This document shows positions 6,383 through 20,764 of a DNA stretch of 32,126 nt, piece by piece. Positions within the stretch are counted from its first letter, which is position 1; every line of letters starts with the position of its first letter. Origin of the DNA: Thermoleophilia bacterium (GTDB lineage Bacteria > Actinomycetota > Thermoleophilia > Miltoncostaeales > Miltoncostaeaceae); contig JADLHW010000154.1 in assembly GCA_020848615.1 (NCBI GenBank), positions 1 to 32,126 of the forward strand. The letters are read 5' to 3'. Under the pieces are notes generated by a model. The model was not told where the DNA came from and did no database searches. It was given only the letters and a program-made list of their open reading frames with translations. The position numbers and the translations under genes were made by a program.

Positions 6383-6780
6383 GCGGGCTGCTCGACCTCC
6401 ACCAGGAACCCGTCGGGGTCACGCAGGAAGAACCGGTGGCCGCCCCACGGCGGCGAGAACGGCGGGGCCAGCATGTCCGCCCCCGCGGCGAGCAGGTCCG
6501 CGTGGACGGCCAGGCAGTCCGCCACCTCCAGCACCAGCACCGCGGCCGCAGAGGAGGGGTCCGGGGGCGCGACCATGAGCACCCCCGGCCGGTCGTCCGC
6601 CGGATGGCCCTGCTCGGCCAGCGACAGGCGCATCCCCGCCCGCACCAGGCTCGCGTACGGCGGGTCGTCGTACACGGCCTCCACCTCGAACCCGAGCATG
6701 TCGCGGTAGAACGCGACGGACCGGTCCACGTCGGCGACGGCCAGGATCACCCCTGCCCGGGTGACGGGGAACGCGGGCAT
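6379..6780 (-). CDS. VOC (glyoxalase/bleomycin-resistance) family protein
   Basis: A 133-residue single-unit vicinal-oxygen-chelate protein with two beta-alpha-beta-beta-beta modules: module one starts with VILAVADVDRSVAFYRDMLGFEVE (about residues 10-33), and module two ends with HRFFLRDPDGFLVEVEQ (about 115-131), the standard FxDPDGxxxExxQ ending with the final Glu as a likely metal ligand. The usual first-strand metal histidine is not evident (the position reads AVADV), so metal binding may be altered. Homologues range from glyoxalases to extradiol dioxygenases and isomerases. The ATG shares one base with the stop of pyridoxal dehydrogenase (TGATG), making it the last gene of the recognisable B6 set. 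A role in B6 breakdown is inferred from coupling only. Confidence 0.85.
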   Translation of the reverse strand: MPAFPVTRAGVILAVADVDRSVAFYRDMLGFEVEAVYDDPPYASLVRAGMRLSLAEQGHPADDRPGVLMVAPPDPSSAAAVLVLEVADCLAVHADLLAAGADMLAPPFSPPWGGHRFFLRDPDGFLVEVEQPA

Positions 6781-7511
6781 CAGTTGTGCGACATTCCGGC
6801 GTCGGCGACCAGCAGCTGCCCGGTCACCCAGCCGGCCTCCTCGGAGGCGAGGAACGCCACCGACGGGGCGATGTCGGCCGCCACGCCGCGCCGCGGGATG
6901 CACTGCAGCATCTGCACGAACTCGAACGACTCGGCGTGCGGGCTGGCCATCGTGCCCTCGGTCTCGGTGAGGCCCGGCGCCACCGCGTTCACGGTGATGC
7001 CGTGCTTGCCGATCTCGCGGGCCAGGGCCCGGGTGAAGCCCAGCACGCCGCCCTTGCTCGCCACGTAGTGCGCGAGGTTGGGGGTGCCGGCGAGCACCAC
7101 GTTGCTGCACAGGTTCACGATGCGGCCGTACCCGGCGTCCCGCATGGGCCTGCTGCCGTGGTGGCAGCACAGGAACAGGCCGTCGAGGTTGACGGCCATG
7201 ATGCGCTTCCACTCCGCGAAGTCCAGGTCGTCCCAGGCCACGAACGGCACGATCGCCGCGTCGTTCACCAGGGCGTCCAGCCGCCCGTAGTGCGCCACGG
7301 TGTCGGCCACCATGCGCTTCACGTCGTCCTCGGAGGAGACGTCCACCTTCATGCCCAGGCCGCCCTCCGGGGCCGCCGCCTCGGCGCCCGCCCCGTTGAG
7401 GTCCGCCACGACGACCCTGGCGCCCTCGGCCGCCAGCTTGTCGGCGATCGCCCTGCCGATGCCCTGCGCGGCGCCGGTGACGATGGCCACGCGTCCGTCC
7501 ATCTTGCCCAT
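6780..7511 (-). CDS. Pyridoxal 4-dehydrogenase (SDR family, NAD-dependent)
   Basis: A 243-residue classical short-chain dehydrogenase. The cofactor motif TGAAQGIG lies at 12-19, the NNAG position reads NDAA (83-86), Asn109 is in VNLDG, and the catalytic set is S136, Y149 and K153 (YVASK). Segments IVPFVAWDD (87-95), AGTPN (141-145) and ASPHAE resemble, as I recall it, the Mesorhizobium loti pyridoxal 4-dehydrogenase, which oxidises the pyridoxal hemiacetal to 4-pyridoxolactone with NAD+. The lactonase gene directly upstream supports this. ATG 7511 has AGGTG a few bases upstream; GTG 7517 is in frame and overlaps the lactonase stop (GTGA), so it is an alternative start two codons longer. A generic SDR would not be expected to share the pathway-specific segments. 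Enzyme activity has not been shown. Confidence 0.88.
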   Translation of the reverse strand: MGKMDGRVAIVTGAAQGIGRAIADKLAAEGARVVVADLNGAGAEAAAPEGGLGMKVDVSSEDDVKRMVADTVAHYGRLDALVNDAAIVPFVAWDDLDFAEWKRIMAVNLDGLFLCCHHGSRPMRDAGYGRIVNLCSNVVLAGTPNLAHYVASKGGVLGFTRALAREIGKHGITVNAVAPGLTETEGTMASPHAESFEFVQMLQCIPRRGVAADIAPSVAFLASEEAGWVTGQLLVADAGMSHN

Positions 7512-7513
7512 GC

Positions 7514-8260
7514 TCACACCTCGTAGAAGTCGGGTGCGTGGCGGTAGGAGCCCCACGCGTCCATGTCATGCGTGAAGAAGACCTGCGCGTCGTGCTGCTC
7601 GGCCAGGGCCTTCACCCGGCGGATGGCCCGCACCCCGGCGACCGGGTCGATGTGGAAGCCGGGCTGCAGGCCCCGGTCCCACGCGTCCTGGGTGTAGGTC
7701 ACGTCGAACGGGAACAGCATGGCCTTCGCGCCCTCGGGCGCCACCAGCAGCGAGTAGTGGCCCAGGGTGTGCCCGGGGGTCTCGTACAGGTGCAGGCCCT
7801 TGGCGATCTCCTGGTCACCGCTGATGGGCACCAGCCGCGCGTCGGGGTGGTCCCAGCCGTGGTCGGAGTACCCGAAGTGCTCGAACGGCTCGCAGTTGCG
7901 GGCCTGCGCGATCTCCCTGGCGTGCACCAGGACCCGGGCGCCCGGCACCAGCTTGTTGCCGCCCACGTGGTCGAAGTGCAGGTGCGACATCACCAGCGTG
8001 TCCACATCGGACGGCTGGAAGCCGCACAGCGCCAGCTGCGCCGGGATCGTCTGCTCCGGGGTCTGCTCCGGCAGCTCGAACGGCAGCACGGCCTTCACGT
8101 GCTCCAGGTCGTAGCCGGAGTCGAACAGGAACAGCCCCTCCTCGTGCTGGATCAGCACCGAGTAGACGGGGAACCGCACCGGGTTCCCGCAGCCGATGTT
8201 CCAGGTGATGTGCGCCTGGTCGATCACCAGGCTCCCGGAGTCCAACAGCCAGATCTTCAC
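7514..8260 (-). CDS. 4-pyridoxolactonase (metallo-beta-lactamase fold)
   Basis: A 248-residue metallo-beta-lactamase-fold lactonase. Zinc ligands are visible: SHLHFDH (H93, H95, D97, H98), TPGH (H164), FPFD (D186) and FTHD (H231). The family is shared with N-acyl-homoserine lactonases, but several segments match the Mesorhizobium 4-pyridoxolactonase as I remember it: VRFPVYSVLI (28-37), the QTIP segment, CEPFEHFGYSD (123-133) and FHIDPVAGV (202-210). The reaction is hydrolysis of 4-pyridoxolactone to 4-pyridoxate in the cytosol. GTG 8260 lies 3 bases after the FHMPC dehydrogenase stop. The substrate-making enzyme is encoded by the next gene downstream, and later pathway enzymes upstream. An automatic annotation would probably call this an AHL lactonase (quorum quenching), which the context argues against. 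Confidence 0.9.
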   Translation of the reverse strand: MKIWLLDSGSLVIDQAHITWNIGCGNPVRFPVYSVLIQHEEGLFLFDSGYDLEHVKAVLPFELPEQTPEQTIPAQLALCGFQPSDVDTLVMSHLHFDHVGGNKLVPGARVLVHAREIAQARNCEPFEHFGYSDHGWDHPDARLVPISGDQEIAKGLHLYETPGHTLGHYSLLVAPEGAKAMLFPFDVTYTQDAWDRGLQPGFHIDPVAGVRAIRRVKALAEQHDAQVFFTHDMDAWGSYRHAPDFYEV

Positions 8261-8263
8261 GGC

Positions 8264-9202
8264 TCAGCCCGCCTTCGCCTCGGAGGCCTCGATGGCCTTG
8301 CGGACGGTCACGAACGCCGCGGCCCGCTGCTTGCGCAGCTCGTCGATCTGCTCGGGGGTGTAGTCGAACAGGCCGCCGCCGGTCTTCATGCCCAGGCGGC
8401 CCTGCTCGATGAGGCCCTGGATGGTGGAGGACACGTCGTCGCGGTTGCACAGGTCCTTGTTCAGATAGGACCCGACGGCGTTGTAGATGTCCATGCCCGC
8501 CATGTCGAGCAGGGCCATGGGGCCGATCACCGCGAGCTTGTAGCCGATGCCCCAGCGCACGTTGAGGTCGAGGGCCTCGGGGCTCACGATGCCCCGGTCC
8601 ACCAGGTCCAGGCACTCCCGCATGATCGCGTAGAGCACGCGGTTCTCGACGAAGCCGGGGACCTCCTTCTCGATCACCGGGTGGTAGCCGATCTCCCGCA
8701 CCAGGGCGCAGGTGCGGTCCAGGACCTCCTGGCTGGTCTTCTCACCGGGGATCACCTCGATCATGGGGATGAGGTGCGGCGGGTTGGACCAGTGCTGGCC
8801 GATCACCCGCTCGGGGTGCTCGCACACCTCGGCGATCGCGGTGATCGGGATGCCCGAGGTGTTGGACGCCAGCACCGTGGTGGGGGAGCAGTGCTGCTCG
8901 AACTGCTTGAAGATCTCGTGCTTGAGCTCCAGCCGCTCCGGGATGGCCTCCAGCACCATGTCGCAGCCCTCGAGCGCCGAGGCCAGGTCGGTGTGGTAGC
9001 TCACCGAGCCGCCGGGCGCCGACGGCGCCTCGAGCCGGTCGAGGATTCCCTCGGCCATGGCGACCATGCCCTTGGCCCGCTCGAGCGCGTCCGCGCTGAC
9101 GTCGTACATGGTCACGGTCACGCCGATCCGGGCGAGCGTGGCGCCCATTCCCGGACCCATCGTGCCGGTGCCGATCACGGCGATCCGGTTGAACTCCGCC
9201 AC
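8264..9202 (-). CDS. FHMPC dehydrogenase (5-formyl-3-hydroxy-2-methylpyridine-4-carboxylate 5-dehydrogenase)
   Basis: A 312-residue protein of the 3-hydroxyacyl-CoA dehydrogenase superfamily. The NAD motif GTGTMG is at 11-16 and the N-terminal Rossmann domain runs to about 185, followed by a helical dimerisation domain. The segments GIPIT (117-121), HWSNPPHLIPMIEV (137-150), VPGFVENRVLYA (181-192) and the later GPMALLDMAG match my recollection of the Mesorhizobium loti enzyme, in which His137 and Glu149 form the catalytic dyad; here H137 and E149 fall at the same numbers. The reaction is NAD-dependent oxidation of the 5-aldehyde to 3-hydroxy-2-methylpyridine-4,5-dicarboxylate. The usual acyl-CoA substrate is unlikely in this setting. 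GTG 9202 comes 1 base after the molybdenum hydroxylase stop, with GGAGGTG upstream. This is one of the strongest pathway markers in the window. Confidence 0.92.
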   Translation of the reverse strand: MAEFNRIAVIGTGTMGPGMGATLARIGVTVTMYDVSADALERAKGMVAMAEGILDRLEAPSAPGGSVSYHTDLASALEGCDMVLEAIPERLELKHEIFKQFEQHCSPTTVLASNTSGIPITAIAEVCEHPERVIGQHWSNPPHLIPMIEVIPGEKTSQEVLDRTCALVREIGYHPVIEKEVPGFVENRVLYAIMRECLDLVDRGIVSPEALDLNVRWGIGYKLAVIGPMALLDMAGMDIYNAVGSYLNKDLCNRDDVSSTIQGLIEQGRLGMKTGGGLFDYTPEQIDELRKQRAAAFVTVRKAIEASEAKAG

Positions 9203-9203
9203 C

Positions 9204-11456
9204 TCACACCTCCGAGCGTTTGTCGTTGCGCGACTGGATTGCCCGCCACACGCGCTCCGGCGTGAGCGGCAGCTGGTTCACGGGGACCCCGGCGTCGGCG
9301 ACCGCGGTCGCCAGCGCGGCGGCCACGGCGGCCAGCGCGCCCTCGCCGCAGCCCTTGGCGCCGAACGGGCCCGGCCCGTCGGCGTTCTCGACGATCACGC
9401 AGGACATCTCGCGCGGGATGTCCCGTGTGGTCGGCACGCGGTACTCCAGGAGCGTCTCGGTGGACAGGTGCCCGCCGTCGAACAGCACCTCCTCGAACAG
9501 GCCGGTGCCGAGGCCCTGGATGCCGCCGCCCTCGTCCTGGCGCTCCACGAAGGCCGGGTTGATGGCCCGCCCGACGTCCGCGATGGTCGCGGTGCGCAGT
9601 GCCCGCACCACGCCGGTGTCGGGATCGACCTCCACCTCCGCGGCGCCCACGGCGACCTCCCAGAACACGGGGCCCTCCGCGTACGAGCCGGAGCCCTCCG
9701 GATGAACGTCGGCGCGGCCGATGAGCTCACCGCCGGCGAACCCGAAGTGCCCGCGCATGAGGTTCAGGTACTCGGCGGGGTCCGCCTCGCCGCCCGCCAT
9801 GTCCTCCAGCTGGCGGCGCAGGTCCTCTGCGGCGCGCTGCACCGCGAGGCCGGCCACGGTGGTGGACCGGCTGGCGCCCGTGGAGCGGTCATACGGCGTG
9901 AAGCGGGTGTCGGTGCCGCCCATCCGGACGCGGTCGACCGGCAGGCCCAGGACCTCCGCGGCGATCTGCGGCATCACGGTGCGGGCGCCCTGGCCCACCT
10001 CGGTGGTCCCGCAGTTCACGGTGATGAGGCCGTCGGCCTCCATCCGCACCGTCGCGCAGCTCACGGGGTGCGCGCCGGCGGCGAGCACGCCCACCGACAG
10101 GCCGCGGCCCACCCATTCGGTGCGCGGGCGGTCCCAGCCGAGGGCGGCGGCGGCCTTCTCCACGTCGCCGATGAGGTCCCCGTCCAGCGGCTTGCCGCCC
10201 GGCCGGACGTCCTCGCCGTGGCGCAGCAGGTTCCTGCGGCGGATCTCCAGCGGGTCGATGCCGAGCTTCCGGGCGATCTCGTCCACCTGGAGCTCACCGG
10301 CCCACTGCTGGTGCACGGCGCCGAACGCGCGGTAGGAGCCGGCGGGGGAGACGTTGGTGTACACGCAGTCGGCGACCACCGACACCGCCTCCCACCGGTA
10401 CGGGCCGGGGGCGGCGTCGCCGGCGGTCGCGACCACGCGGGGACCGTTGTCCGCGTACGCGCCCGTGTCGAACAGGCAGACGGCCTGGCGCGCGACCAGG
10501 GTGCCGTCGTTGCGCGCCGCGGTGCGCAGGTGGATGCGGCAGCTGTGCTGGCGGCTGGTGAGGATCGCCTCGTCCACGCGGGCGACGACCCGCACGGGCC
10601 GGCGGGCCTTGCGGGCCACCGCGATGGTGAGGGGCTCCAGGCGCGTGTAGCTCTTGCTGCCGAACCCGCCGCCCAGGAACGGCACGATGATGCGGACGTT
10701 GGACAGCGGCACGCCGAACACCGAGGCCATCTCCGCCCGCACCAGGAACGGGTGCTGGCAGTTGGCCCACATCGTGATCTCGTCGCCGTCCACCTGCGCG
10801 ATGCACGCGTGGGTCTCCATCGAGTACTGGTAGGCGGACCCGAACTCGAACGTGCCCTCCACCACCACGTCGGCGGCGGCGAACGCGGCGTCGAGGTCGC
10901 CCCAGTCGAGCTCGTAGCGGTAGCAGACGTTCCCCAGCCGCTCGGGCAGGTTCCCCAGGCCGTGGAACGCGCCGCCGCGGGCCGGCTCCTCGTGCACCAG
11001 GGGCGCGCCGGGCCCGGTGGCGCCGTCCAGGTCGGTGGCGGCGGGGGTGGGCTCGTAGTCCACGCGGATGGCGCGCACCGCGGCCTCCGCCTGCTCCTCG
11101 GTCTCGGCGGCCACCACGGCGACCGGCTCGCCCGCGAAGCGCACCCGGTCGATCGCGATGATCGGGCGGTCGCGGATCGCGTGGCCGTAGTACGGATCGA
11201 TGTCCAGCAGGTCGGTGCCCACCAGGACGCACACCACGCCGGGCATGGCCTCGGCGGCGGAGGCGTCGATCGAGCGGATGCGGCCCGCGGGGATCTCGCT
11301 GCGCAGGACCTTGCCGTGCAGCATCCCGGGGACCTCGGTGTCACCGACGTACTTCACCTGGCCCCGGATCTTCTGGGCGGAGTCCTTGCGGGGCACCGAG
11401 TGGCCCAGCGCGCTGCCGGTCTCCAGGTGCTGCTGCGGGGTGGGGGTGGTGGTCAT
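9204..11456 (-). CDS. Molybdopterin-binding large subunit of a xanthine-dehydrogenase-family hydroxylase
   Basis: A 750-residue large subunit. Residues about 20-135 form the a/b hammerhead domain. The first molybdopterin domain has LGGGFGSKSY (261-270), a later YRAFGAVHQQWAGE segment corresponds to the YRAFG-x-PQ substrate/cofactor motif, and GAKGCGEGAL near the end holds the expected catalytic Glu (about E705). These enzymes insert oxygen from water into aromatic heterocycles, usually at a carbon next to nitrogen, and pass electrons through 2Fe-2S clusters to FAD. ATG 11456 overlaps the 2Fe-2S subunit stop (ATGA). The FAD subunit lies on the divergent operon. Placed among B6 genes, a pyridine carboxylate such as MHPC is the likely substrate. 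That is inference; nicotinate hydroxylases give the precedent. Confidence 0.9.
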   Translation of the reverse strand: MTTTPTPQQHLETGSALGHSVPRKDSAQKIRGQVKYVGDTEVPGMLHGKVLRSEIPAGRIRSIDASAAEAMPGVVCVLVGTDLLDIDPYYGHAIRDRPIIAIDRVRFAGEPVAVVAAETEEQAEAAVRAIRVDYEPTPAATDLDGATGPGAPLVHEEPARGGAFHGLGNLPERLGNVCYRYELDWGDLDAAFAAADVVVEGTFEFGSAYQYSMETHACIAQVDGDEITMWANCQHPFLVRAEMASVFGVPLSNVRIIVPFLGGGFGSKSYTRLEPLTIAVARKARRPVRVVARVDEAILTSRQHSCRIHLRTAARNDGTLVARQAVCLFDTGAYADNGPRVVATAGDAAPGPYRWEAVSVVADCVYTNVSPAGSYRAFGAVHQQWAGELQVDEIARKLGIDPLEIRRRNLLRHGEDVRPGGKPLDGDLIGDVEKAAAALGWDRPRTEWVGRGLSVGVLAAGAHPVSCATVRMEADGLITVNCGTTEVGQGARTVMPQIAAEVLGLPVDRVRMGGTDTRFTPYDRSTGASRSTTVAGLAVQRAAEDLRRQLEDMAGGEADPAEYLNLMRGHFGFAGGELIGRADVHPEGSGSYAEGPVFWEVAVGAAEVEVDPDTGVVRALRTATIADVGRAINPAFVERQDEGGGIQGLGTGLFEEVLFDGGHLSTETLLEYRVPTTRDIPREMSCVIVENADGPGPFGAKGCGEGALAAVAAALATAVADAGVPVNQLPLTPERVWRAIQSRNDKRSEV

Positions 11457-11908
11457 CGGGCGAGCTCCCGCGCCGCGTCGATGATCGCCCGGTAGCCGGT
11501 GCAGCGGCACACGTTGCCGGACAGGGCCTCGCGCACCACGTCCTCGTCGTCGGCGAGCTCCCCGGCCTCCAGCAGGGACGTGATGGTGAGCGCCATCCCG
11601 CTGGTGCAGTAGCCGCACTGCAGCGCGTTGTGGTGCTCGAACACCTCCTCCAGGCGCGCGAAGCCCGGGGTCTCGGCGAGGCCCTCGATGGTCATCACCC
11701 TGCGCCCGCGCGCCTCGTGGGCGAGGGTGGTGCAGGCGCTCACCGGCACGCCGTCCAGCAGCACGGTGCAGGTGCCGCACACCTGGACGTCGCAGGACCG
11801 CTTGGCCCCGGTGAGGCCCAGGCGGTCACGCAGGACGTCGAGCAGCAGGTCGCTGGGCGCGACCTCCAGCGTCCGCGGCACACCGTTCACGGTCGTCTCG
11901 ATCAGCAT
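11453..11908 (-). CDS. 2Fe-2S small subunit of the molybdenum hydroxylase
   Basis: A 151-residue iron-sulfur subunit of normal length. The plant-type ferredoxin cluster is bound by C39, C44, C47 and C59 (CDVQVCGTC and the Cys 12 residues on), and the second cluster by C98, C101, C134 and C136 (CGYC and CRC). The protein relays electrons from the molybdenum centre to the FAD subunit. ATG 11908 lies 16 bases after the decarboxylase stop, and the stop overlaps the large-subunit ATG, so the pair should be made in equal amounts. All eight cysteines are intact. Confidence 0.95.
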   Translation of the reverse strand: MLIETTVNGVPRTLEVAPSDLLLDVLRDRLGLTGAKRSCDVQVCGTCTVLLDGVPVSACTTLAHEARGRRVMTIEGLAETPGFARLEEVFEHHNALQCGYCTSGMALTITSLLEAGELADDEDVVREALSGNVCRCTGYRAIIDAARELAR

Positions 11909-11924
11909 GCCGCCGCCTCCCAGC

Positions 11925-12650
11925 TCATGCCGCCCGGCGCAGCCAGGCGTCCCAGTACTCGCGCACGAACCCGTCCCGGTACTTCTCGGGGGCCAGGCGC
12001 CGCGCGTCCTCGTCGCTCATGGGGGACAGGGCCCCGCCGAGCGTCCCCGCGACCGACTGGATGCGGGCCGCCCGCTCCAGCGTCGCCGCGGTCACCACCA
12101 CCCACGGGATGTCCGCGCCCACCACCAGCACCCCGTGGTTGCGCATGAGCACCGCGCGGCAGTCCCCGAGGGCCTCCGCCACCGCGGCGCCCTCGCCGGC
12201 CGACACCACCAGGTCGGGGCTCGCGTCGTAGCGCGGCAGCCCGTCGGCGAACAGCACGGCGTCGTGGCTCAGCATCTCCAGCCGGGCCCCGGTGGCCGCG
12301 AGCGCGGTGGCGTGCAGGGGGTGGCCGTGCACCACGGCGCCCACGTCCGGCCGCACCCGGTACACCTCGGTGTGCAGCGCCGTCTCCAGGTGCAGCTCGG
12401 CGCCGTCCTCCAGCGGCCGGCCGTCCAGGTCCACCATCACCACGTCGTCCGCGGTGACCTCCTCCAGTGCGATGCCCTTGCGCTTGATCAGCGCGGCGTC
12501 GCGGCCCGGCACCCGGGCGCTCACATGGCCCAGCGTGAGGTCCGAGTACCCCTCGGAGGCCAGCACCCGGCAGGCCGCGGCGACGTCGTCCCGCAGGCCG
12601 CGGAGCTCGTCGGCCACGCGGCCGCCCTCGCTGGCCGTGGTGGCGCTCAC
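11925..12650 (-). CDS. Class II aldolase-family decarboxylase, probable HMPDC 4-decarboxylase
   Basis: A 241-residue protein of the class II aldolase/adducin family. The metal site is E89 plus HGH (H108, H110) and NHG (H172), with E89 exactly 19 residues before H108 as in fuculose-phosphate aldolase. The start SDLTLGHVSARVP (36-48) is typical. In Mesorhizobium loti, a member of this family removes the 4-carboxyl group from 3-hydroxy-2-methylpyridine-4,5-dicarboxylate, the product of FHMPC dehydrogenase, to give MHPC. Since FHMPC dehydrogenase is encoded in the same operon, this is the best assignment; a sugar-phosphate aldolase is the alternative. GTG 12650 overlaps the cupin stop (GTGA), which decides the start over longer in-frame options. 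Confidence 0.83.
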   Translation of the reverse strand: MSATTASEGGRVADELRGLRDDVAAACRVLASEGYSDLTLGHVSARVPGRDAALIKRKGIALEEVTADDVVMVDLDGRPLEDGAELHLETALHTEVYRVRPDVGAVVHGHPLHATALAATGARLEMLSHDAVLFADGLPRYDASPDLVVSAGEGAAVAEALGDCRAVLMRNHGVLVVGADIPWVVVTAATLERAARIQSVAGTLGGALSPMSDEDARRLAPEKYRDGFVREYWDAWLRRAA

Positions 12651-13009
12651 CGCCGGTCCGTGGGCGGGTAGTCCGGGTGGGGGAACCCGAACACCATCAC
12701 CACGTCCTCGTCGCCGGTGTTCGCCACGGCGTGCCACACCCCCGCGGGGATGTGCAGGGCGTCGCCCGTGGTGAACGGCACGGCACCGTCGTCGAGCCGC
12801 AGCTCCCCGGAGCCGGAGACCACGTAGGCGAACTCCTCGGTCTCGTGCCGCACGGCGCCCAGGATCGTCCCCGGTGTGAAGACCGACGCACCCAGGGACC
12901 CCACCGCGCCGGGGACGCTGGACCCGGTGACCAGCATCCGGCTCCAGCTGTCCCCGGGCAGGGGGATGGGGTCGACGTCCGCCAGCGAGACGACCGAGAC
13001 GCCGCTCAC
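12647..13009 (-). CDS. Single-domain cupin protein
   Basis: A 120-residue small beta-barrel protein. Cupin motif 1 is GAVRHETEEFAYVVSGSG, where one His and Glu are present but the usual HxH pair reads H-E-T, and motif 2 is GDALHIPAGVWHAVAN with the expected PxG and His. Two or three metal ligands therefore remain, so a metal-dependent isomerase, decarboxylase, dioxygenase or pure binding role is possible. The C-terminus PHPDYPPTDRR is typical of small stand-alone cupins. The GTG overlaps the stop of the M29/NicX-like gene (GTGA) and its own stop overlaps the decarboxylase GTG, so it belongs firmly to the catabolic operon. I cannot give it a substrate. Confidence 0.88.
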   Translation of the reverse strand: MSGVSVVSLADVDPIPLPGDSWSRMLVTGSSVPGAVGSLGASVFTPGTILGAVRHETEEFAYVVSGSGELRLDDGAVPFTTGDALHIPAGVWHAVANTGDEDVVMVFGFPHPDYPPTDRR

Positions 13010-14007
13010 AGCACCCACTTGCCGTCCTTGAGGATGTGGGTGTCGTCGTCCTCGATGCGCATGGTGGCGTTCAGGAACACGCCGTCCAGGTGCAGGGCGC
13101 AGACGTTCTGCCCGCCCGGGTACGCGTTGTGGTTGTCGCCGAGCGCCATGTGCACCGTCCCGACGCGGCCCTTCTCGGACGGCGTGCCGAACGGCGCCTT
13201 GTCGCTCACCCCGAAGGCGAACTCGCCGAGCACGGTGGCGTTCTCGACGCCGTCGATCGCCTTGCGCAGCCGCTCGGCCTCGTCGCCGCCCTCGATCCTG
13301 ACGGCCTTGCCGCCCTCCATCGTCCAGGTGATGGGCTCCTTCACCTGGCCCTCCAGGCCGATGCCCAGCATCACGCCGTCCACCACGGCGATGCCGTGCG
13401 TGTAGTCCTCGACGGCGGCGAAGGCGACCTCCGCCCACAGCGGCACCGGGCCCATCATCTGCCCGCGATGCTTGATGGGCGTGACCTCGAGCGACGGCCG
13501 CCCCTCGATGGACACGTGGAAGTCGCAGCCGGCGGGGGTGGTCACGTGGACGTGCTTCTTGCCCTCCAGCACCGACATCGCGTGCTTGGCGCGCGCGATC
13601 GCCATGTGGAGGTCCTCCACGGTGAGGCCCCAGGAGCCCATCCCGGGCTCCACCGAGGCGATCTTGCCGTTCGCCGCGCAGGTCTCCTTCACCGCGTTGA
13701 CGTGCGCGAAGCGGTTCGCCCACTCCAGGTTGGTGATGATGATGACCTCGTCGCTGGCGATCATCGCCTGGTGCAGGTTGCGGGGCGGCGCCATGGGGAA
13801 GCGCACGTCCGCGCGGCCGCGGCGCACCTGCTGCTCGTTGTTCATCACCACCGGCCAGCCGCCGCGCTCCACGACGATCTGGGCGACGGCCTCGGCCTGC
13901 TCGCGGTTCTCGTCGTCGCAGATGATCGTGACGACGTCGTCCGGCTCGACGGACATGCAGACGTCCACGACCAGCGCGGCGTCCTGCAGCAGCTCCACAC
14001 GGGCCAT
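13006..14007 (-). CDS. M29 aminopeptidase/NicX-like metalloenzyme (candidate ring-cleavage dioxygenase)
   Basis: A 333-residue protein resembling the M29 (aminopeptidase T) superfamily, to which the 2,5-dihydroxypyridine dioxygenase NicX of nicotinate degradation also belongs. Residues 1-150 form the Rossmann-like N-terminal part. The metal-site region holds E194 (WAEVAF), E262 (GEFAFG), H286 (VHMALG), H293, and HLD at H306/D308, the conserved His-x-Asp pair of both M29 and NicX proteins. Because both M29 glutamates seem retained, hydrolase chemistry cannot be excluded. In this operon, next to a molybdenum hydroxylase and a cupin, a NicX-type Fe(II) dioxygenase opening a dihydroxylated pyridine is attractive. 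The gene starts 4 bases after the flavoenzyme stop. Family call firm, reaction inferred. Confidence 0.75.
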   Translation of the reverse strand: MARVELLQDAALVVDVCMSVEPDDVVTIICDDENREQAEAVAQIVVERGGWPVVMNNEQQVRRGRADVRFPMAPPRNLHQAMIASDEVIIITNLEWANRFAHVNAVKETCAANGKIASVEPGMGSWGLTVEDLHMAIARAKHAMSVLEGKKHVHVTTPAGCDFHVSIEGRPSLEVTPIKHRGQMMGPVPLWAEVAFAAVEDYTHGIAVVDGVMLGIGLEGQVKEPITWTMEGGKAVRIEGGDEAERLRKAIDGVENATVLGEFAFGVSDKAPFGTPSEKGRVGTVHMALGDNHNAYPGGQNVCALHLDGVFLNATMRIEDDDTHILKDGKWVL

Positions 14008-14011
14008 CTCG

Positions 14012-15040
14012 CTACCTCACTCTCTCGGCCGCGAACCGCGGCAGGACCTCGCTCGCGAAGCGCTCGACCTGGCCGAACTGGTCGATCGCCCCGAAGCGGC
14101 AGACGAAGTGGTCGACCCCGGCCTCGGCGAACCTCCGGAGCCACTCGGTGATCTGGTCCGGCGTGCCCACCGGCCCCCAGTTGCCCAGGTCCATGGCCTG
14201 GGACAGCTCGGGGTAGTACTTGCCGATGTACTCGCCGAAGGCGGCGCGGGCCTCGTCCTCCGAGTCGCCCACGTTCATGGTCACCTGGTAACAGATCTTC
14301 AGCCGGTCGAAGTCGGCGCCCTCGTCGTCGGCCACCCTGCGGATCCAGGCGAGCTGCTCCTCGAGCTCCTCGGGGTGCTCCGCCCGGCAGCAGGTCATCC
14401 AGCCGTCGCCGTAGCGCACGATGCGACGACACGCGGCGATGATCCGCCGCTCCATGGTCTCCTGGGACGCCTTGCCCACGAGGCGCGGATTGGAGACCAC
14501 CCAGATCGGCGGGGGGCTCTGCACCGGCATCAGCGGGCCGAGCTCGGTGCCGGAGTAGAACGCCACGTCGTCGTAGGTGAAGTGCTCGCCCTGGAGGTTC
14601 ACCTTCCCGGTGGTCCAGAGCTGGCGGATGGCGTCCAGGCCCTCCTCGAAGATCGCCGTGCGCTTCGTGAAGTCCCAGCCGAGGGCCGCGAACTCGCGCC
14701 GCACGCCCTCCTCGGGGTTCCCGGCGCCGGTGCCGAGGATCGTCCGCCCGTTGGAGAGGTGGTCGAGGGTCGCCCACTCCAGCGCCAGGTACAGGGGGTT
14801 GCGGGTGGAGGACACCATGCAGGAGGTCCCCAGGCGCACCCGCTCGGTGCGCTGGGAGATCGCCGACAGCAGGGAGATGGGCTCGTACCGCGGCTTGGAG
14901 AACAGGCTGTCGCCCACCCACACCGAGTCGAAGCCCAGCTGCTCGGCCCGCTCCGCGAGGGACAGGAGCATGGGCAGGTCGTACTCCGGGGCGATCAGCG
15001 GCTCCCGGTTGTTGAGGTTCACCCCGAATTCCAGACTCAT
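14012..15040 (-). CDS. LLM-class (luciferase-like) flavin-dependent oxidoreductase
   Basis: A 342-residue TIM-barrel flavoenzyme of the bacterial luciferase/F420 superfamily. Hallmarks are LAERAEQLGFDSVWVGDS near the start, then RVRLGTSCMVSSTRNPLYLALEWATLDHLSNGR, GTGAGNPEE, and a C-terminal VGTPDQITEWLRRFAEAGVDHFVCRF. Members use FMNH2 or F420; the former include ring-opening monooxygenases such as RutA for pyrimidines and a pyridine-opening enzyme known from Arthrobacter. A four-residue signature separating FMN from F420 users cannot be read by eye. ATG 15040 overlaps the regulator stop (ATGA), so it is the first enzyme gene of the leftward operon. It could hydroxylate or cleave a B6-derived pyridine, or carry out the otherwise unassigned 4-pyridoxate oxidation. 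Its substrate is inferred only. Confidence 0.88.
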   Translation of the reverse strand: MSLEFGVNLNNREPLIAPEYDLPMLLSLAERAEQLGFDSVWVGDSLFSKPRYEPISLLSAISQRTERVRLGTSCMVSSTRNPLYLALEWATLDHLSNGRTILGTGAGNPEEGVRREFAALGWDFTKRTAIFEEGLDAIRQLWTTGKVNLQGEHFTYDDVAFYSGTELGPLMPVQSPPPIWVVSNPRLVGKASQETMERRIIAACRRIVRYGDGWMTCCRAEHPEELEEQLAWIRRVADDEGADFDRLKICYQVTMNVGDSEDEARAAFGEYIGKYYPELSQAMDLGNWGPVGTPDQITEWLRRFAEAGVDHFVCRFGAIDQFGQVERFASEVLPRFAAERVR

Positions 15041-15732
15041 CGCTTGAGCACGACCTCCTCGTGGCTCGCGGCCTCGAGCGTTCGCTGTGGCACGCGGATG
15101 TGGTTTCTCAGCAGCCGTTCGGCCCGGCCGGCGTCGCGGGCGCGGCATGCGCGGGCGATCGCCCGGTGCTCGGCCACCGACCGGCGCACCGTGCCCCGGA
15201 GGGCGACGGAGCGCATCTGGTAGCGGCCCATGTGGCCGATGAGCTGCCGGTACATGTCCTGGAGCGTCGTGTTCCGCGACACGTCGACGAACAGCTGGTG
15301 GAACGAGCTGTTCAGGACGAAGAAGCCGTCGATGTCATCGCGCCCGAGGGCCAGGACCTGGCGGTCGACGATGGCGTCGATGCGGTCGACGTCGTCGTCG
15401 GTGAGGTTGGGGACCGCCAGCCGGATGGCCAGCGTCTCCAGGGCCTCCCGGACCTGGTAGGCCTGCATGAACTCCTCGTGGGTGAGCGCCGAGACCACGG
15501 CGCCCCTGCGGGGCCGCACCGTGACCAGGCCCTCGGCGGCGAGCCGCCCCAGGGCCTCGCGGATGGGCCCGCGGCTCACGCCCAGCGACGCGGCGAGGGG
15601 GACCTCCGACAGCACCGTCCCGGGGGGGAGGGTGTTGTCGAGGATCTGCTCGCGCAGGTGCGTGTAGACCCGCTCCCACAGCGTGACGTTCTCGACGGGA
15701 GCGAGCGCGGCCGTATCCCTGCGGGCGGCCAT
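15037..15732 (-). CDS. GntR family regulator, FadR/FCD subgroup
   Basis: A 231-residue DNA-binding regulator. Residues about 17-80 are the GntR winged helix (LWERVYTHLREQILDNTLPPG, then LAASLGVSRGPIREALGRLAAEGL and VRPRRGAVV). Residues about 88-222 form the all-helical FCD effector domain, with the metal-site histidines visible in SSFHQLF, AEHRAI and RNHIRV. FCD regulators usually repress catabolic operons until a carboxylate effector and metal bind, and they recognise short TTGT/ACAA-type palindromes. Such a site lies at 15809-15821 in the divergent promoter. It is therefore the likely local repressor of both B6 operons, perhaps responding to a pyridine carboxylate such as 4-pyridoxate. The ribosome-binding site is weak. 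The ligand is inferred. Confidence 0.9.
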   Translation of the reverse strand: MAARRDTAALAPVENVTLWERVYTHLREQILDNTLPPGTVLSEVPLAASLGVSRGPIREALGRLAAEGLVTVRPRRGAVVSALTHEEFMQAYQVREALETLAIRLAVPNLTDDDVDRIDAIVDRQVLALGRDDIDGFFVLNSSFHQLFVDVSRNTTLQDMYRQLIGHMGRYQMRSVALRGTVRRSVAEHRAIARACRARDAGRAERLLRNHIRVPQRTLEAASHEEVVLKR

Positions 15733-15766: not shown

Positions 15767-15821
15767 TTGACTCGTGCTTCATGCCTGGGATAAGAACTCG
15801 TCGAATGTCTGTTGTCAACAG
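15767..15821. promoter_or_regulatory. Overlapping divergent promoters with a GntR-type palindromic operator
   Basis: Leftward promoter: TTGACA at 15818-15813, a 17-base spacer, and TCTTAT at 15795-15790, giving a start near 15783, about 50 bases before the regulator ATG. Rightward promoter: TTGACT at 15767-15772, a 16-base spacer and GATAAG at 15789-15794, with a start near 15801. The two -10 boxes occupy the same bases on opposite strands. The 13-base palindrome CTGTTGTCAACAG (15809-15821) contains the leftward -35 and lies just past the rightward start, so one bound GntR/FCD dimer could block both promoters. The boxes are seen directly; their use is inferred. Confidence 0.7.
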
Positions 15822-15938
15822 TTGGCGATGGACTCCCGCGACACCCCGTCAGGGGCCCCCGGGGGCCGTCCCAACGACCGAACCGCCGCCGGGGGCACGA
15901 GCCCGGATCGCGATCCGCAGAAAGGACTAGGGGGGAAA

Positions 15939-17012
15939 TTGAGACGTTCCTTCAAGCACGCGGCGCTCGCCGTGATCGTCGCGGGGGCAGTGGCCCTCAC
16001 CGGCTGTGGCAGTGACAGCGGCAGCGGTGACGACACCAGCGGAGGCTCGACCAGCGCTCCGGCGGTCTCGATCGCCAAGATCGGCATCGCCGCGCCCGAG
16101 AAGGGCAACGACTACGGCTGGAACCAGCAGGGCGTCGACGGCGCGAAGGCCGCCGCGGCGAACCTGGGGGCCGAGATCGAGGTGGCCGACGGCGTCGGCT
16201 ACGACAACGTGGAGCCGGTGCTCCGGCGCCTCGCCCAGCAGGACAGCAAGCTCATCATCGCCCAGGCCTCCGGGTACAACACGGTGGCCCCGAAGGTCGC
16301 GGCCCAGTTCAAGGTGCCGACCCTCGTCTACGACTCGCCGTCGGCCACCAAGGCCGGCGAGGTCGCCGACGTGGAGACCTCCAGCCAGCAGGGCGCGTAC
16401 CTCGCCGGCATCCTCGCGGCGAAGACCACCAAGACCGGCACGCTCGGCATCGTGGTCTCCGCGGCCGACACGAACTGGTTCAAGATGGCCGGCGGCTTCG
16501 CGGCCGGCGCGAAGAGCGTCAAGGCGGACGTGAAGTTCAAGATGGCCCAGGTCGGCCAGGCCGCGTACGCGGACTCCGCCGGCGGCAAGCGCGTGACCGC
16601 CCAGGTCATCGCGGCCGGCGCCGACATCGTGTTCGGCATGGGTGACGGCGCGTCCTTCGGGATGCTGCAGGCCGTCGAGACCGCGAAGGCCCCCGCGGGA
16701 GCCGACAAGGTCTACTTCATCGACGTGATCGGCGACAAGTCGCCCATCGACAAGAAGGACGTCCTGCTGTCCTCGGTCCTGTGGGACTTCACGAAGGTGT
16801 TCGAGCAGGCCGCCGCGGACATCGGCGCCGGCACGTTCGGCAGCACCGGCTACGAGATCAACGTCACGAACGGGATCTCGCTGCTGAAGACCGATCTGGC
16901 CCCCGAGGACGTGTGGGCCGAGGTCGACGACGCCCAGGCGAAGATCGCCTCGGGCGAGATCGAGGTCCCGCTGACGCCGGACCAGGCCGCCGTCGACGCG
17001 CTGATCAAGTAA
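15939..17012 (+). CDS. BMP-family ABC transporter substrate-binding lipoprotein
   Basis: A 357-residue lipoprotein beginning at TTG 15939 (LRRSFKH), with GGGGGG just upstream as ribosome-binding site. The signal peptide ends in the lipobox ALTGC with C23, followed by a Ser/Gly/Asp linker. The mature part has the BMP/PnrA pattern: IGIAAPEKGNDYGWNQQGVDGAK near the start, then DNVEPVLRRLAQQDSKLIIAQASGY, the VADVETSSQQGAYLAGILAA hinge segment, and IVFGMGDGASFGMLQA. BMP proteins bind nucleosides, and in spirochetes riboflavin. An in-frame ATG at 15828 would add 37 residues lacking signal character, so I rejected it. As the first gene of the divergent B6 operon it probably binds a B6 vitamer, an inference from context. 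A hairpin follows the stop. Confidence 0.9.
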   Translation: MRRSFKHAALAVIVAGAVALTGCGSDSGSGDDTSGGSTSAPAVSIAKIGIAAPEKGNDYGWNQQGVDGAKAAAANLGAEIEVADGVGYDNVEPVLRRLAQQDSKLIIAQASGYNTVAPKVAAQFKVPTLVYDSPSATKAGEVADVETSSQQGAYLAGILAAKTTKTGTLGIVVSAADTNWFKMAGGFAAGAKSVKADVKFKMAQVGQAAYADSAGGKRVTAQVIAAGADIVFGMGDGASFGMLQAVETAKAPAGADKVYFIDVIGDKSPIDKKDVLLSSVLWDFTKVFEQAAADIGAGTFGSTGYEINVTNGISLLKTDLAPEDVWAEVDDAQAKIASGEIEVPLTPDQAAVDALIK

Positions 17013-17068: not shown

Positions 17069-18682
17069 TTGACCGGCACCACCGACACCGCAGGCCACGA
17101 CGCGGCCGCCGCTCCGGCGGCCGTCGAGTTGCGCGGCATCACCAAGGCATTCCCGGGCGTCCTCGCCAACGATCACATCGACCTGGCGCTGCGCCCCGGC
17201 GAGGTCCACTGCCTGCTCGGCGAGAACGGGGCGGGCAAGTCGACGCTCATGAGCATCCTGTCGGGCATGGTCCAGCCCGACGAGGGCGACATCCTCATGG
17301 ACGGCGCGCCCGTCCGCATCGACTCGCCCAAGCGGGCGATCGAGATGGGCATCGGCATGGTCTACCAGCACACCACGCTGGTCCCCACGCTGTCCGTCCT
17401 CGACAACCTCATGATGGGCAGCTCCCGCGCGTTCCGCCTGGACGAGGCCGGCTCGCGCGAGCGCCTCGCCGAGGTGGCGGCCATGCTGGGGGTGGACGTC
17501 GACCCCGACGCCGAGACCCAGTCGCTGGCCCTCGGCCAGCAGCAGCAGGTCGAGATCATCAAGGCGCTGTGGCGCGGGTCGAAGGTGCTGATCCTCGACG
17601 AGCCCACCTCGATGCTCACCCCGCAGGGCGTGGTGGAGCTCGCCAAGGCCGTCGAGCGCCTGAAGGGCCACGGCCTGGGCGTCGTGCTCATCACCCACAA
17701 GCTCCACGAGGCCACATCCATGGGCGACCGCGTGACGGTCCTCAAGCAGGGCCGCGTGGTGGGGCGCCTCGCCCCGCATGAGCTCGCGGGACGCTCCCAC
17801 CAGGAGCTGCAGGACGTGATCGTCGGGATGATGTTCGGCGAGCAGGTGGCACCCGCCCCCGAGCTGGTTGAGCTGCAGGAGCACGTGGAGCCCGCGCGGG
17901 CCCGGCGCGACCTGCCCGAGGAGCCGCTGCTCACGGTGGACGCCCTGGAGGTGGGCGCCAAGGGCGGCGAGATGGGCCTGCGCGGCGTGAGCCTCGCGGT
18001 GCGGCCGGGGGAGATCCTCGGCATCGCCGGCGTGGACGGCAACGGTCAGCGCGAGCTCGCCGAGGCCATCGCCGGCCAGCGGCCCGCGACGGCTGGCGAC
18101 ATCCGCTTCCGGGGCGTGTCGATCGCCCGCCTGTCGGTGTGGCAGCGCGAGCGCCTGGGCCTGCGGTACGTCAGCGACGACCGCATGGGAGAGGGCACCG
18201 TGGCCGCGCTGCCCGTGGGCCTCAACCTCGTGCTGAAGCGCATCGGCCAGGCGCCGTTCTGGCGCCGCGGCAGCATCCGGCACGCCGAGGTGGAGCGCAA
18301 CGCCCGCGAGAAGATCGCCGAGTTCGCGATCCGCACGCCGGGCTCCGGCACGCGGGTCGGGACGCTCTCCGGCGGGAACATCCAGAAGGTCGTCCTCGCG
18401 CGGGAGCTCTCGAACGACCCGAAGCTGGTGGTCTACAACAAGCCCACCTACGGGCTGGACATCGTCACGACCCGCATGGTCCGCGAACGCATCGAGGCGC
18501 TCGCGGCGGAGGGGGTGAGCGCCCTGGTCATCTCCACGGACCTGGACGAGCTGGTGGCGCTGTGCGACCGGATCGCGGTGATCAGCCGCGGCCGCATCGC
18601 CGGCGTCATCGAGAACGGGGCGGGCGCGGAGCAGCGCGTGGGAGAGCTGATGGTCGGCGGGCACGCGGAGGTCGTCCGATGA
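17069..18682 (+). CDS. ABC transporter ATPase, duplicated domains (BMP/simple-sugar type)
   Basis: A 537-residue fused double ATPase of the BMP/nucleoside and sugar importer class. The first domain has Walker A GENGAGKST (51-59), signature LALGQQQQVE (about 153) and Walker B VLILDEPTS (about 173-181). The second half begins at about residue 285, has a degenerate Walker A (GVDGNGQRE), an intact LSGGNIQKV (about 434) and a weakened Walker B reading LVVYNKPTYGLD, where the usual catalytic Glu is Lys. One functional and one degenerate ATP site is normal for this class. Start TTG 17069 follows GGAG at 17061-17064. The stop overlaps the permease ATG (ATGA). It powers uptake by the adjacent permeases. 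Confidence 0.93.
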   Translation: MTGTTDTAGHDAAAAPAAVELRGITKAFPGVLANDHIDLALRPGEVHCLLGENGAGKSTLMSILSGMVQPDEGDILMDGAPVRIDSPKRAIEMGIGMVYQHTTLVPTLSVLDNLMMGSSRAFRLDEAGSRERLAEVAAMLGVDVDPDAETQSLALGQQQQVEIIKALWRGSKVLILDEPTSMLTPQGVVELAKAVERLKGHGLGVVLITHKLHEATSMGDRVTVLKQGRVVGRLAPHELAGRSHQELQDVIVGMMFGEQVAPAPELVELQEHVEPARARRDLPEEPLLTVDALEVGAKGGEMGLRGVSLAVRPGEILGIAGVDGNGQRELAEAIAGQRPATAGDIRFRGVSIARLSVWQRERLGLRYVSDDRMGEGTVAALPVGLNLVLKRIGQAPFWRRGSIRHAEVERNAREKIAEFAIRTPGSGTRVGTLSGGNIQKVVLARELSNDPKLVVYNKPTYGLDIVTTRMVRERIEALAAEGVSALVISTDLDELVALCDRIAVISRGRIAGVIENGAGAEQRVGELMVGGHAEVVR

Positions 18683-19812
18683 GCAGCGACGCGACGGCCC
18701 CCGCCACCGCCGCCCAGGCGCCGCCCGGCCCCGCGGAGACCGCGCCGCCCGCGGCCATCGGCCGCATGGCCGAGATCGTGGTGCGCTCGCTGGTGCCCGT
18801 GCTGCTGGCCCTGGTGGCCGGCGGGCTGGTGCTGCTCGCGCTCGGCGCGAACCCCATCCAGTTCTACGCGGACGTGTGGTCCGGCGGCATGGACTTCGGC
18901 GCCTGGCAGGACACGGTCATGCGCATGGCCCCGCTCGCGCTCATCGCCTGCGGCCTCATCTACGTGTTCAAGGCGGGCATCTGGAACCTGGGGATCGACG
19001 GCCAGTTCCTGCTGGCCGGCGGGGTCATCGCCGGCCTCGCGCCCGAGCTGTACGGCAACATGCCCGACGCCCTGATGTTCCTGATCCTGTTCATCGTGGC
19101 GGGCGTCGTGGCCTCGGTGTGGACGATCGTCCCGGCCCTCCTGCGCGCCCACTACGGCGTGAACGAGATCATCACCTCGCTGATGACGAGCTTCATCGGC
19201 ATCAACCTCGCGAACATCCTCATCAAGGGCCCGTTCCAGGACACCGCCTCGAACGTGCCGCAGACCGAGGCCATCCCGTTCACCAACCTGCTGCCCACCA
19301 TCCCGGGCACGCGCATCCACGTGGGCGTCATCGTGGCCGCGGTGCTGGCGATCGCCACGTGGTACGCGATGTCGCGGACCTCGTTCGGGCTGCGGCTCGC
19401 CATCCTGGGCGCCAACGCCCGGGCGGCCGCGCACGTGGGCATCTCGGTGCCGCGGCTCATCCTGGTGGCGTTCATGACCAGCGGCGCCTTCATCGGCCTG
19501 GCCGCCGCCGCGGAGATCATGGGCATCTGGGGCTACGTGCGGGCCGACTGGAACCCGGCGTTCGGGTTGCTGGTGGTTCCGCTGGTGTTCCTCGCCCGGT
19601 TCAACGCGCTCGCCACGATCCCGTTCGTGGCGGCGCTCGCCCTCATGACGATCGGCGGCGACCTCGCCACGCAGAACGCGGGCGTCTCGAACGAGTTCAC
19701 GCTCCTGCTGGTGGGCCTGGTCCTGCTGTTCATGGGGGTCACCGAGCTGCTCGGGCGGCGCCGGAGCCTCGGGCAGAGCTACCTGCAGGGCATCAAGCGG
19801 CGGAAGGGCTGA
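18679..19812 (+). CDS. ABC transporter permease 1 (BMP-type importer)
   Basis: A 377-residue membrane protein of the branched-chain/BMP permease family (YufP-like). A Pro/Ala-rich cytosolic lead of about 30 residues is followed by about nine to ten helices. Typical segments are RMAPLALIACGLIYVFKAGIWNLGIDGQFLLAGG (the GxxNLGxDG-Q coupling/loop signature of this family), ALLRAHYGVNEIITSLMTSFI, and TSFGLRLAILGANARAAAHVGIS, the cytosolic EAA-like loop contacting the ATPase. The ATG overlaps the ATPase stop by 4 bases. It pairs with the next permease to form the channel. Substrate is set by the binding protein, proposed here to be a B6 vitamer. Confidence 0.93.
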   Translation: MSSDATAPATAAQAPPGPAETAPPAAIGRMAEIVVRSLVPVLLALVAGGLVLLALGANPIQFYADVWSGGMDFGAWQDTVMRMAPLALIACGLIYVFKAGIWNLGIDGQFLLAGGVIAGLAPELYGNMPDALMFLILFIVAGVVASVWTIVPALLRAHYGVNEIITSLMTSFIGINLANILIKGPFQDTASNVPQTEAIPFTNLLPTIPGTRIHVGVIVAAVLAIATWYAMSRTSFGLRLAILGANARAAAHVGISVPRLILVAFMTSGAFIGLAAAAEIMGIWGYVRADWNPAFGLLVVPLVFLARFNALATIPFVAALALMTIGGDLATQNAGVSNEFTLLLVGLVLLFMGVTELLGRRRSLGQSYLQGIKRRKG

Positions 19813-19813
19813 C

Positions 19814-20764
19814 GTGTCCGAGATCTTCACCACCGACGTCCTCACCGCGCTGCTGGCCGGCGGCATCCTCGCCGGGGTGCCGCTGCTGTTCGCCGCCCTG
19901 GGCGAGATGGTCGCCGAGCGCGCCGGCGTCCTGAACATCGGGCTCGAGGGCTACATGCTCATGGGCGCGTACGTGGGGTTCGTCACCGCCTACCACACCA
20001 ACACGTTCCTGGGCTTCCTGGGCGGCGCCGCCGCGGGGGCCGCCGTGAGCCTCATCATGGTGGTCCTGTGCATCCGCCTCGGCCTCGACCAGATCGTGGT
20101 GGGCATCGCCATCACGCTGGCCGCAGAGGGGGCGACGGCGCTCATCTTCGACTCCCAGTTCGCCGAGAGCCGGCCCACCCTGGGGGCGACCGAGCGCATC
20201 GACATCCCCGGGCTGTCGCAGATCCCGGTGGTGGGCGGCGGGGACACCAGCGACGGCAGCGTCTTCAGCCAGCCGCCCATCGTCTACATCGGCCTGGCCA
20301 TCGTGGTCGGCACGGCCTGGACCATGCGGCGCACCCACTGGGGCCTGAACATCCGCGCCGCGGGCGACAAGCCCAGCGCCCTGGACGCCGCCGGCGTGAG
20401 CGTGCTGGGCACCCGCACGTGGGCGACGCTGTTCTGCGGGGCGATGGCCGGCATGGGCGGCGCCTACCTGTCCATCACCGCCGCCGGCCTGTTCGAGGAC
20501 TTCATCACCCAGGGCCGCGGCTTCATCGCGATCGTCCTGGCGATGCTCGCCCGGGGGAAGGGCGCCTGGGTGCTCATCGGGGCCTTCGTGTTCGGGATCT
20601 CCCTGTCGATCTCGGACGCCCTGCAGATCGCGGGCGTCGACATCTCCACCGATCTGGTCTTCATGCTGCCGTTCGTCACGGTGATCGCCGTCCTGGTGGT
20701 CTTCGGGCGGCGGTCGTACCTGCCGGCGGCGCTCGCGCTGCCCTACGTCCGGGGTGCCCGCTGA
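19814..20764 (+). CDS. ABC transporter permease 2 (BMP-type importer)
   Basis: A 316-residue membrane protein (YufQ-like), the second half of the permease heterodimer. It has about nine helices. The family marker MVAERAGVLNIGLEGYMLMGAY lies near residues 35-56, and the coupling loop is THWGLNIRAAGDKPSALDAAGVSV. The C-terminus ends GRRSYLPAALALPYVRGAR, close to standard length. GTG 19814 is one base after the stop of permease 1, and its TGA shares a base with the SRPBCC gene ATG (TGATG), so transport and enzyme genes are one transcript. This coupling is the main ground for assigning the importer to the catabolic pathway. Confidence 0.93.
   Translation: MSEIFTTDVLTALLAGGILAGVPLLFAALGEMVAERAGVLNIGLEGYMLMGAYVGFVTAYHTNTFLGFLGGAAAGAAVSLIMVVLCIRLGLDQIVVGIAITLAAEGATALIFDSQFAESRPTLGATERIDIPGLSQIPVVGGGDTSDGSVFSQPPIVYIGLAIVVGTAWTMRRTHWGLNIRAAGDKPSALDAAGVSVLGTRTWATLFCGAMAGMGGAYLSITAAGLFEDFITQGRGFIAIVLAMLARGKGAWVLIGAFVFGISLSISDALQIAGVDISTDLVFMLPFVTVIAVLVVFGRRSYLPAALALPYVRGAR

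Follow-up and report, generated by a model that had tools for sequence, protein, structure and literature searches.

A vitamin B6 degradation cluster of a Thermoleophilia genome whose lower pathway may open the pyridine ring without the known oxygenase

How is the pyridine ring of vitamin B6 opened in a bacterium that carries a B6 degradation cluster but in which the ring-opening oxygenase is not found? This question is raised by contig JADLHW010000154.1 of a Thermoleophilia bacterium related to the Miltoncostaeaceae (assembly GCA_020848615.1; 3.6 Mb in 183 contigs, 96% complete), of which we analysed positions 1 to 32,126, here called the window (32 kb, 73% GC). PMC3538738 names only two routes of B6 catabolism, and the one whose enzymes have been sequenced uses an oxygenase for ring opening. 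The first-pass annotation of the window had proposed that the flavin oxygenase acting on 3-hydroxy-2-methylpyridine-5-carboxylate (MHPC), hereafter MHPCO, is replaced by a three-subunit xanthine dehydrogenase (XDH)-type molybdenum hydroxylase and a NicX-type dioxygenase of M29-like sequence; in this proposal it did not mention a luciferase-like (LLM) protein, a cupin and an HMPD-decarboxylase-like gene of the same operon. The unusual lower pathway, the failure to find MHPCO, the complete hydroxylase and NicX as the nearest fold were upheld by our analysis, and the dioxygenase role was not. We propose that the MHPC oxygenase is replaced by molybdenum-dependent hydroxylation, F420H2-dependent reduction of the ring through the LLM protein, and hydrolytic opening by the M29-like protein, where the reactions of the lower pathway, their substrates and order and the cofactor of the LLM protein are what we infer, and we give this scheme a probability of roughly 45%.

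The minus strand carries a compact operon in which adjacent genes overlap or almost abut, and which encodes, in the order of transcription, a GntR regulator, the LLM protein, the M29-like protein, a cupin, a class II aldolase-fold protein, the small and then the large subunit of the Mo-hydroxylase, a 3HCDH-family protein, a metallo-beta-lactamase and a short-chain dehydrogenase/reductase (SDR). The divergent plus operon encodes a BMP-type ABC transporter, a CoxG-like frame, a class V aminotransferase, the FAD subunit of the hydroxylase, an alanine dehydrogenase and a GMC oxidoreductase (Table 1). As judged from the families encoded, these two operons are a regulon for vitamin B6 uptake and degradation. 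The 4-pyridoxolactonase, the pyridoxal 4-dehydrogenase and the binding protein of the B6 transporter scored over their NCBIfam cut-offs, and for the FHMPC dehydrogenase and the pyridoxamine-pyruvate transaminase (PPAT) the matching models ranked first with scores below the cut-off. The PPAT homologue matched the structure of the Mesorhizobium enzyme (2z9u) with the E value given in Table 1, and the aldolase-fold protein matched Mlr6791 (PDB 2z7b) at E 4e-21, with other aldolases ranking above it. The upper steps would follow the Mesorhizobium-type route to MHPC: pyridoxamine would be handled by the PPAT homologue and alanine dehydrogenase, pyridoxal would be converted to 4-pyridoxate via the SDR and the lactonase, the 5-alcohol would be oxidised by the GMC oxidoreductase or an alcohol dehydrogenase, the FHMPC dehydrogenase homologue would act on the aldehyde, and removal of the 4-carboxyl group would fall to the class II aldolase-fold protein. 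At many of the related loci described below a zinc alcohol dehydrogenase gene follows that of the SDR (L045:14107-15153, L051:1842-2885), and the window instead has the GMC oxidoreductase in its divergent operon.

No MHPCO is encoded in the window. It was not found in the genome either, where two of the 16 PF01494 matches were checked and neither was MHPCO, the remainder not all having been examined. The best of the 16 is nearest to enzymes of the 4-hydroxybenzoate 1-hydroxylase type (E 7e-76, compared to E 1.8e-23 for MHPCO) and the other was a weak general match. As a positive control, plasmids were searched by tblastn for an annotated B6 cluster that has MHPCO, with only unspecific HCDH matches of 35-40% as the outcome. 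With the PF01494 matches checked in part, it is likely that the genome lacks MHPCO. The earlier claim of a pathway for B6 whose lower part is unusual is supported.

In the lower pathway as we propose it, the three-subunit Mo-hydroxylase would in most cases carry out a C6 alpha-hydroxylation with water, the LLM protein would partially reduce the ring with F420H2, and the M29-like dinuclear metalloprotein, together with the cupin as its partner, would open the ring by hydrolysis, so that the ring would be cleaved without O2; a variable amidase, M20 hydrolase or amidohydrolase may complete the product. Hydroxylation of MHPC at C6 would make chemical sense and is plausible; in Agrobacterium DW-1, alpha-hydroxylation of 3-hydroxypyridine is followed by an Fe(II) dioxygenase (PMC6525221). 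Eubacterium barkeri and Azorhizobium degrade nicotinate by reducing the ring and then opening it hydrolytically (PMC9304392), and in aerobic actinobacteria picrate and dinitrophenol are substrates of F420H2-dependent reductases from the LLM superfamily (PMC8498797). The identities of the genes, the conservation of the cluster, the metal ligands and the existence of two cluster types are read directly from sequence. As for the last step, an M20 family hydrolase is encoded downstream of the operon (window 4884-6422, minus strand), and elsewhere an M20 hydrolase, an amidase or a PF04909 amidohydrolase is found, any of which could carry out a final amide hydrolysis. A single fixed downstream hydrolase was considered and rejected, as Amh2 and M20/amidase differ from locus to locus and neither is seen at many loci.

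The cluster was followed through 75 non-duplicate loci obtained from a search of the class and a scan of genome contigs. Loci with M29 and the LLM protein and/or the aldolase were called type 1 (61 loci), and those with M29 and a dihydroorotate-dehydrogenase-fold (DHOD) protein and/or UbiD were called type 2 (12 loci). The type-1 set is LLM, class II aldolase and SDR/lactonase, the type-2 set is a PreA-like reductase, UbiD and AOR, and no locus mixes them: LLM is present at 56 loci and DHOD at 11, aldolase at 57 and UbiD at 12, and SDR at 35 and AOR at 7, with zero overlap, while the cupin comes after M29 in both types. If the SDR and lactonase correspond to AOR, and the aldolase to UbiD, in net reaction, then the LLM protein most simply corresponds to PreA, which is a ring reductase. 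LLM, M29, aldolase and HCDH occur together at 41 of the 75 loci, and therefore the arrangement is not a matter of chance. When phyla are compared, the genes for LLM, M29, the cupin and the decarboxylase-like protein are the most constant members of the cluster, and this conserved cluster without MHPCO spans Thermoleophilia, Chloroflexota, Acidimicrobiia, Armatimonadota and others. At the type-2 locus L142 the DHOD protein has as its closest match PreA, which reduces the ring in pyrimidine breakdown; a B6-type substrate-binding protein (389.5 bits, cut-off 400) and PPAT-like and FHMPC-dehydrogenase-like proteins are also encoded. Relatives of the M29 protein with 46-49% identity are found in B6-like clusters of genomes without a haem-copper oxidase (Peptococcaceae, Aerophobetes), and COX1 had no match in the genomes of the type-2 loci L143, L149, L153 and L155. 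B6-like clusters that have a PreA-like reductase and UbiD, in some cases also AOR, were seen at L142:2491-20987, L143, L144, L149, L153 and L155 (SAR324, Deltaproteobacteria, Aerophobetes, Peptococcaceae), which raises the possibility of anaerobic B6 degradation. Distant M29-like proteins (~30% identical) stand beside LLM, GntR and SDR at two Thermoleophilia loci (L066 and L067, about 9-18 kb), so the M29-LLM pairing recurs. Three metagenome-assembled genomes titled Bifidobacterium breve, Rhodospirillales and Bacillota (L118, L088, L105) carry an actinobacterial or Chloroflexota-like cluster, and mislabelling or contamination is possible in these.

The LLM protein had as its best NCBIfam model the F420 family TIGR03619, at 145 bits, which is below the cut-off of 167, and its nearest sequences in the PDB were the F420 enzymes FGD and Mer. 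The host genome encodes the F420 ligase, as do 19 of 20 type-1 genomes, the lone exception being 73% complete, and a strong match was found in none of 11 type-2 genomes, one of which had a weak partial match; across the genomes of the class Thermoleophilia about 60% had a strong match. From this we infer that the LLM protein is an F420H2-dependent ring reductase.

The M29-like protein matched only NicX in a single-sequence search of the PDB (E 0.012), and in a profile search NicX (7e-17) and PepS (6e-16) were about equal. Its AlphaFold model aligned to NicX over the whole chain with Z 33.0, rmsd 3.0 and 316 residues, whereas PepS, AmpT and AmpS gave Z 24-25 (PepS 24.6). The iron ligands of NicX are His265, Ser302, His318 and Asp320 (PMC7910607), and M29 enzymes have the EEHYHD set (PMC7023490). 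In a profile alignment the window protein keeps the HxD pair (H306, D308) but has A264 and A288 in place of H265 and S302, and every type-1 and type-2 protein has Ala at both positions. The five M29 metal ligands E193, E262, H286, H306 and D308 are invariant in 28 homologues, and the first three of these are M29 residues that NicX has lost. The residue corresponding to NicX His105, H102, is conserved in the M29 proteins. In its sequence and predicted structure the protein is NicX-like in shape and M29-like in its metal site and fails membership of the NicX family on its ligands. We propose that it acts as a hydrolytic ring opener.

All three subunits of the hydroxylase are encoded, as had been claimed, with the FAD subunit lying in the divergent operon, outside the stretch 9204-14007 to which the claim referred. 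Its subunits reached no curated equivalog cut-off in NCBIfam, and the top scores of the S and M subunits were to glyceraldehyde dehydrogenase models. It is present at 39 of the 41 loci that have LLM, M29, aldolase and HCDH together. Several observations have to be set against the scheme, and the first concern this enzyme. The single-contig genome of L058 has no orthologous hydroxylase, the best homologue being 37% identical, and in L098/L052 (genome 87% complete) it is without any match in the genome; in both cases LLM, M29, cupin and aldolase are kept. Because these two type-1 lineages lack an orthologous hydroxylase, the hydroxylation step is not universal, and the hydroxylase and the M29 protein are not an obligate pair. 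In the tree the type-1 and type-2 hydroxylases form separate clades that are not sisters, and since paralogues lie between them we rejected their orthology; a common reaction is therefore not implied. In two type-2 Thermoleophilia genomes only homologues of 39-40% were found. The hydroxylase is apparently a frequent but dispensable partner that was brought in more than once. The second group concerns F420. The Thermoleophilia families that hold the type-2 members of the class (f2 and f4) mostly lack the F420 ligase anyway, and so the correlation is partly one of lineage, which weakens the F420 partition as proof of the LLM cofactor. Comparison of the predicted LLM fold did not tell enzymes that use F420 apart from those that use FMN (luciferase Z 33.4, FGD1 Z 32.1), and as a way to settle the cofactor it was given up as a tie, the two being within about 1 Z. 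Finally, the catalytic Tyr of the M29 set (Y352 of EEHYHD) is not kept, position 293 being His in type 1 and Ala or Ser in type 2, with a nearby Tyr296 conserved; type 2 extends beyond anaerobes, as several of its genomes carry COX1; and the mutual exclusion of the two types may reflect few evolutionary events.

Some of these observations would be accounted for if the LLM protein were an FMNH2-dependent monooxygenase that opens the ring of MHPC, with the M29 protein hydrolysing the acyclic acetamido product in place of the E-2AMS hydrolase and the Mo-hydroxylase having a side activity such as aldehyde oxidation. The two lineages without a hydroxylase would then be explained, the metal hydrolase site of M29 would suit its role, the scores to glyceraldehyde dehydrogenase models would fit, and FMN monooxygenases and RutA do lie within the LLM fold. 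The LLM sequence, however, is nearest to F420 enzymes, and type 2 swaps LLM for a PreA-like reductase yet keeps M29 and the cupin, which is a better fit to a shared cyclic substrate than to an acyclic amide made with O2; we consider this explanation unlikely, although it is the strongest of the alternatives. The dioxygenase model of the first-pass annotation, in which the Mo-hydroxylase turns MHPC into 2,5-dihydroxy-6-methylnicotinate and the M29 protein cuts C5-C6 as a NicX-type Fe(II) enzyme, draws on the closeness of the fold and the similar length, on H102 and on the Agrobacterium DW-1 precedent. The two missing iron ligands beside an intact dimetal set and the type-2 relatives in genomes without COX1 make it less likely, the two M29-bearing lineages without a hydroxylase speak against it as well, and on balance it is improbable. 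That M29, cupin and LLM act in support, by deglycosylating or deacylating B6 conjugates or by detoxification, while an unlinked enzyme opens the ring gains some room from the PF01494 matches and other oxygenases of the genome having been only partly examined, but is likewise improbable given that these genes and the decarboxylase-like gene are what the cluster keeps most constantly.

Returning to the scheme with reduction and hydrolysis, a wider claim would be that O2-independent opening of the B6 ring exists in two versions, one with F420H2 and LLM in aerobic F420 producers including the host, and one with the PreA-like reductase, UbiD and AOR that reaches anaerobes, and that M29 with its cupin is a new type of heterocycle hydrolase; this we hold as a tentative possibility that falls somewhat short of probable. 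A literature search found no report of anaerobic or F420-dependent B6 catabolism, and as subscription papers were mostly outside that search it is not proof of novelty. If the scheme is true, it would add a B6 catabolic route beyond ring opening by an oxygenase and assign a function to proteins that as a group are now called aminopeptidases, and the counterpart in genomes without haem-copper oxidases would suggest B6 breakdown in oxygen-free habitats.

The features of the two operons are collected in Table 1. Elsewhere in the window, a winged-helix-like protein without a Pfam match (155-853, plus strand) resembles an AbiEi antitoxin by eye, and one frame at 26547-29420 (plus strand) is a SecD-SecF fusion downstream of YajC.

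Table 1. Genes of the two divergent operons, with positions in the window and the matches on which the names are based
Feature	Position	Strand	Basis
GntR/FCD-type regulator, first gene of the minus operon	15037..15732	-	NCBIfam GntR-family matches; kept beside LLM at many loci
Luciferase-like (LLM) protein, proposed F420H2-dependent ring reductase	14012..15040	-	PF00296; TIGR03619 best NCBIfam
M29/NicX-fold metalloprotein, proposed hydrolytic ring opener	13006..14007	-	PF02073; AlphaFold pLDDT 94
Small cupin	12647..13009	-	Weak cupin-type NCBIfam matches; adjoins M29 in both cluster types
Class II aldolase-fold protein, proposed HMPD decarboxylase	11925..12650	-	NCBIfam class II aldolase and 3,4-dihydroxyphthalate decarboxylase; PDB 2z7b
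Mo-hydroxylase 2Fe-2S subunit	11453..11908	-	NCBIfam search
Mo-hydroxylase molybdopterin subunit	9204..11456	-	PF01315, PF02738, PF20256; PDB 4-HBCR, quinoline 2-oxidoreductase
FHMPC 5-dehydrogenase homologue (3HCDH family)	8264..9202	-	NF042925 best match, 429 bits (cut-off 500)
4-Pyridoxolactonase	7514..8260	-	NF047925, 355 bits (cut-off 325)
Pyridoxal 4-dehydrogenase (SDR)	6780..7511	-	NF047923, 366 bits (cut-off 325)
BMP-type substrate-binding protein, putative B6 ABC transporter	15774..17012	+	NF047927, 422 bits (cut-off 400)
ABC ATPase and two permeases	17069..20764	+	PF00005, PF02653; reading frames
CoxG-like accessory protein	20764..21411	+	Named by eye; homologues in neighbouring clusters
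Pyridoxamine-pyruvate aminotransferase homologue	21411..22595	+	PDB 2z9u E 9e-104; NF046070, 428 bits (cut-off 600)
Mo-hydroxylase FAD subunit (third subunit)	22592..23443	+	PF00941 E 6e-47; NCBIfam glyceraldDH_beta, 169 bits
Alanine dehydrogenase	23443..24558	+	TIGR00518, 492 bits (cut-off 392)
GMC flavin alcohol oxidoreductase, candidate for pyridoxine / 4-pyridoxate alcohol oxidation	24581..26104	+	PF00732, PF05199

Compared to vitamin B6 degradation pathway I of Mesorhizobium loti MAFF303099 and Pseudomonas sp. MA-1, the locus has in common the PPAT, the SDR-type pyridoxal 4-dehydrogenase, the 4-pyridoxolactonase, the FHMPC dehydrogenase and the HMPD decarboxylase homologues, and it differs in that no MHPCO was found and no E-2AMS hydrolase was identified, LLM, M29, cupin and Mo-hydroxylase being encoded instead. 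With NicX, the 2,5-dihydroxypyridine 5,6-dioxygenase of P. putida (PDB 7cn3), the M29 protein shares the full-length fold, a similar length, the HxD metal motif and H102, but it has the M29-site residues E193, E262 and H286 and not the iron ligands H265 and S302. The M29 aminopeptidases AmpT, AmpS and PepS share all five metal ligands and the fold (Z ~24) and, unlike the window protein of about 330 residues, are 400-418 residues long; the position of the catalytic Tyr also differs, and the window protein belongs to a catabolic cluster for a small molecule. The degradation of 3-hydroxypyridine in Agrobacterium DW-1 would share with our proposal the step in which a 3-hydroxypyridine is alpha-hydroxylated to give a 2,5-dihydroxypyridine, but that route ends with an Fe(II) dioxygenase, which the residues of the window M29 protein do not fit. 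A parallel in proposed logic, water-derived hydroxylation, ring reduction and hydrolytic opening, is to the anaerobic catabolism of nicotinate in Eubacterium barkeri and the reductive catabolism of pyrimidines by PreA, from which the present system would differ in drawing its reductase (LLM) and its hydrolase (M29) from other families and in acting on a B6 derivative.

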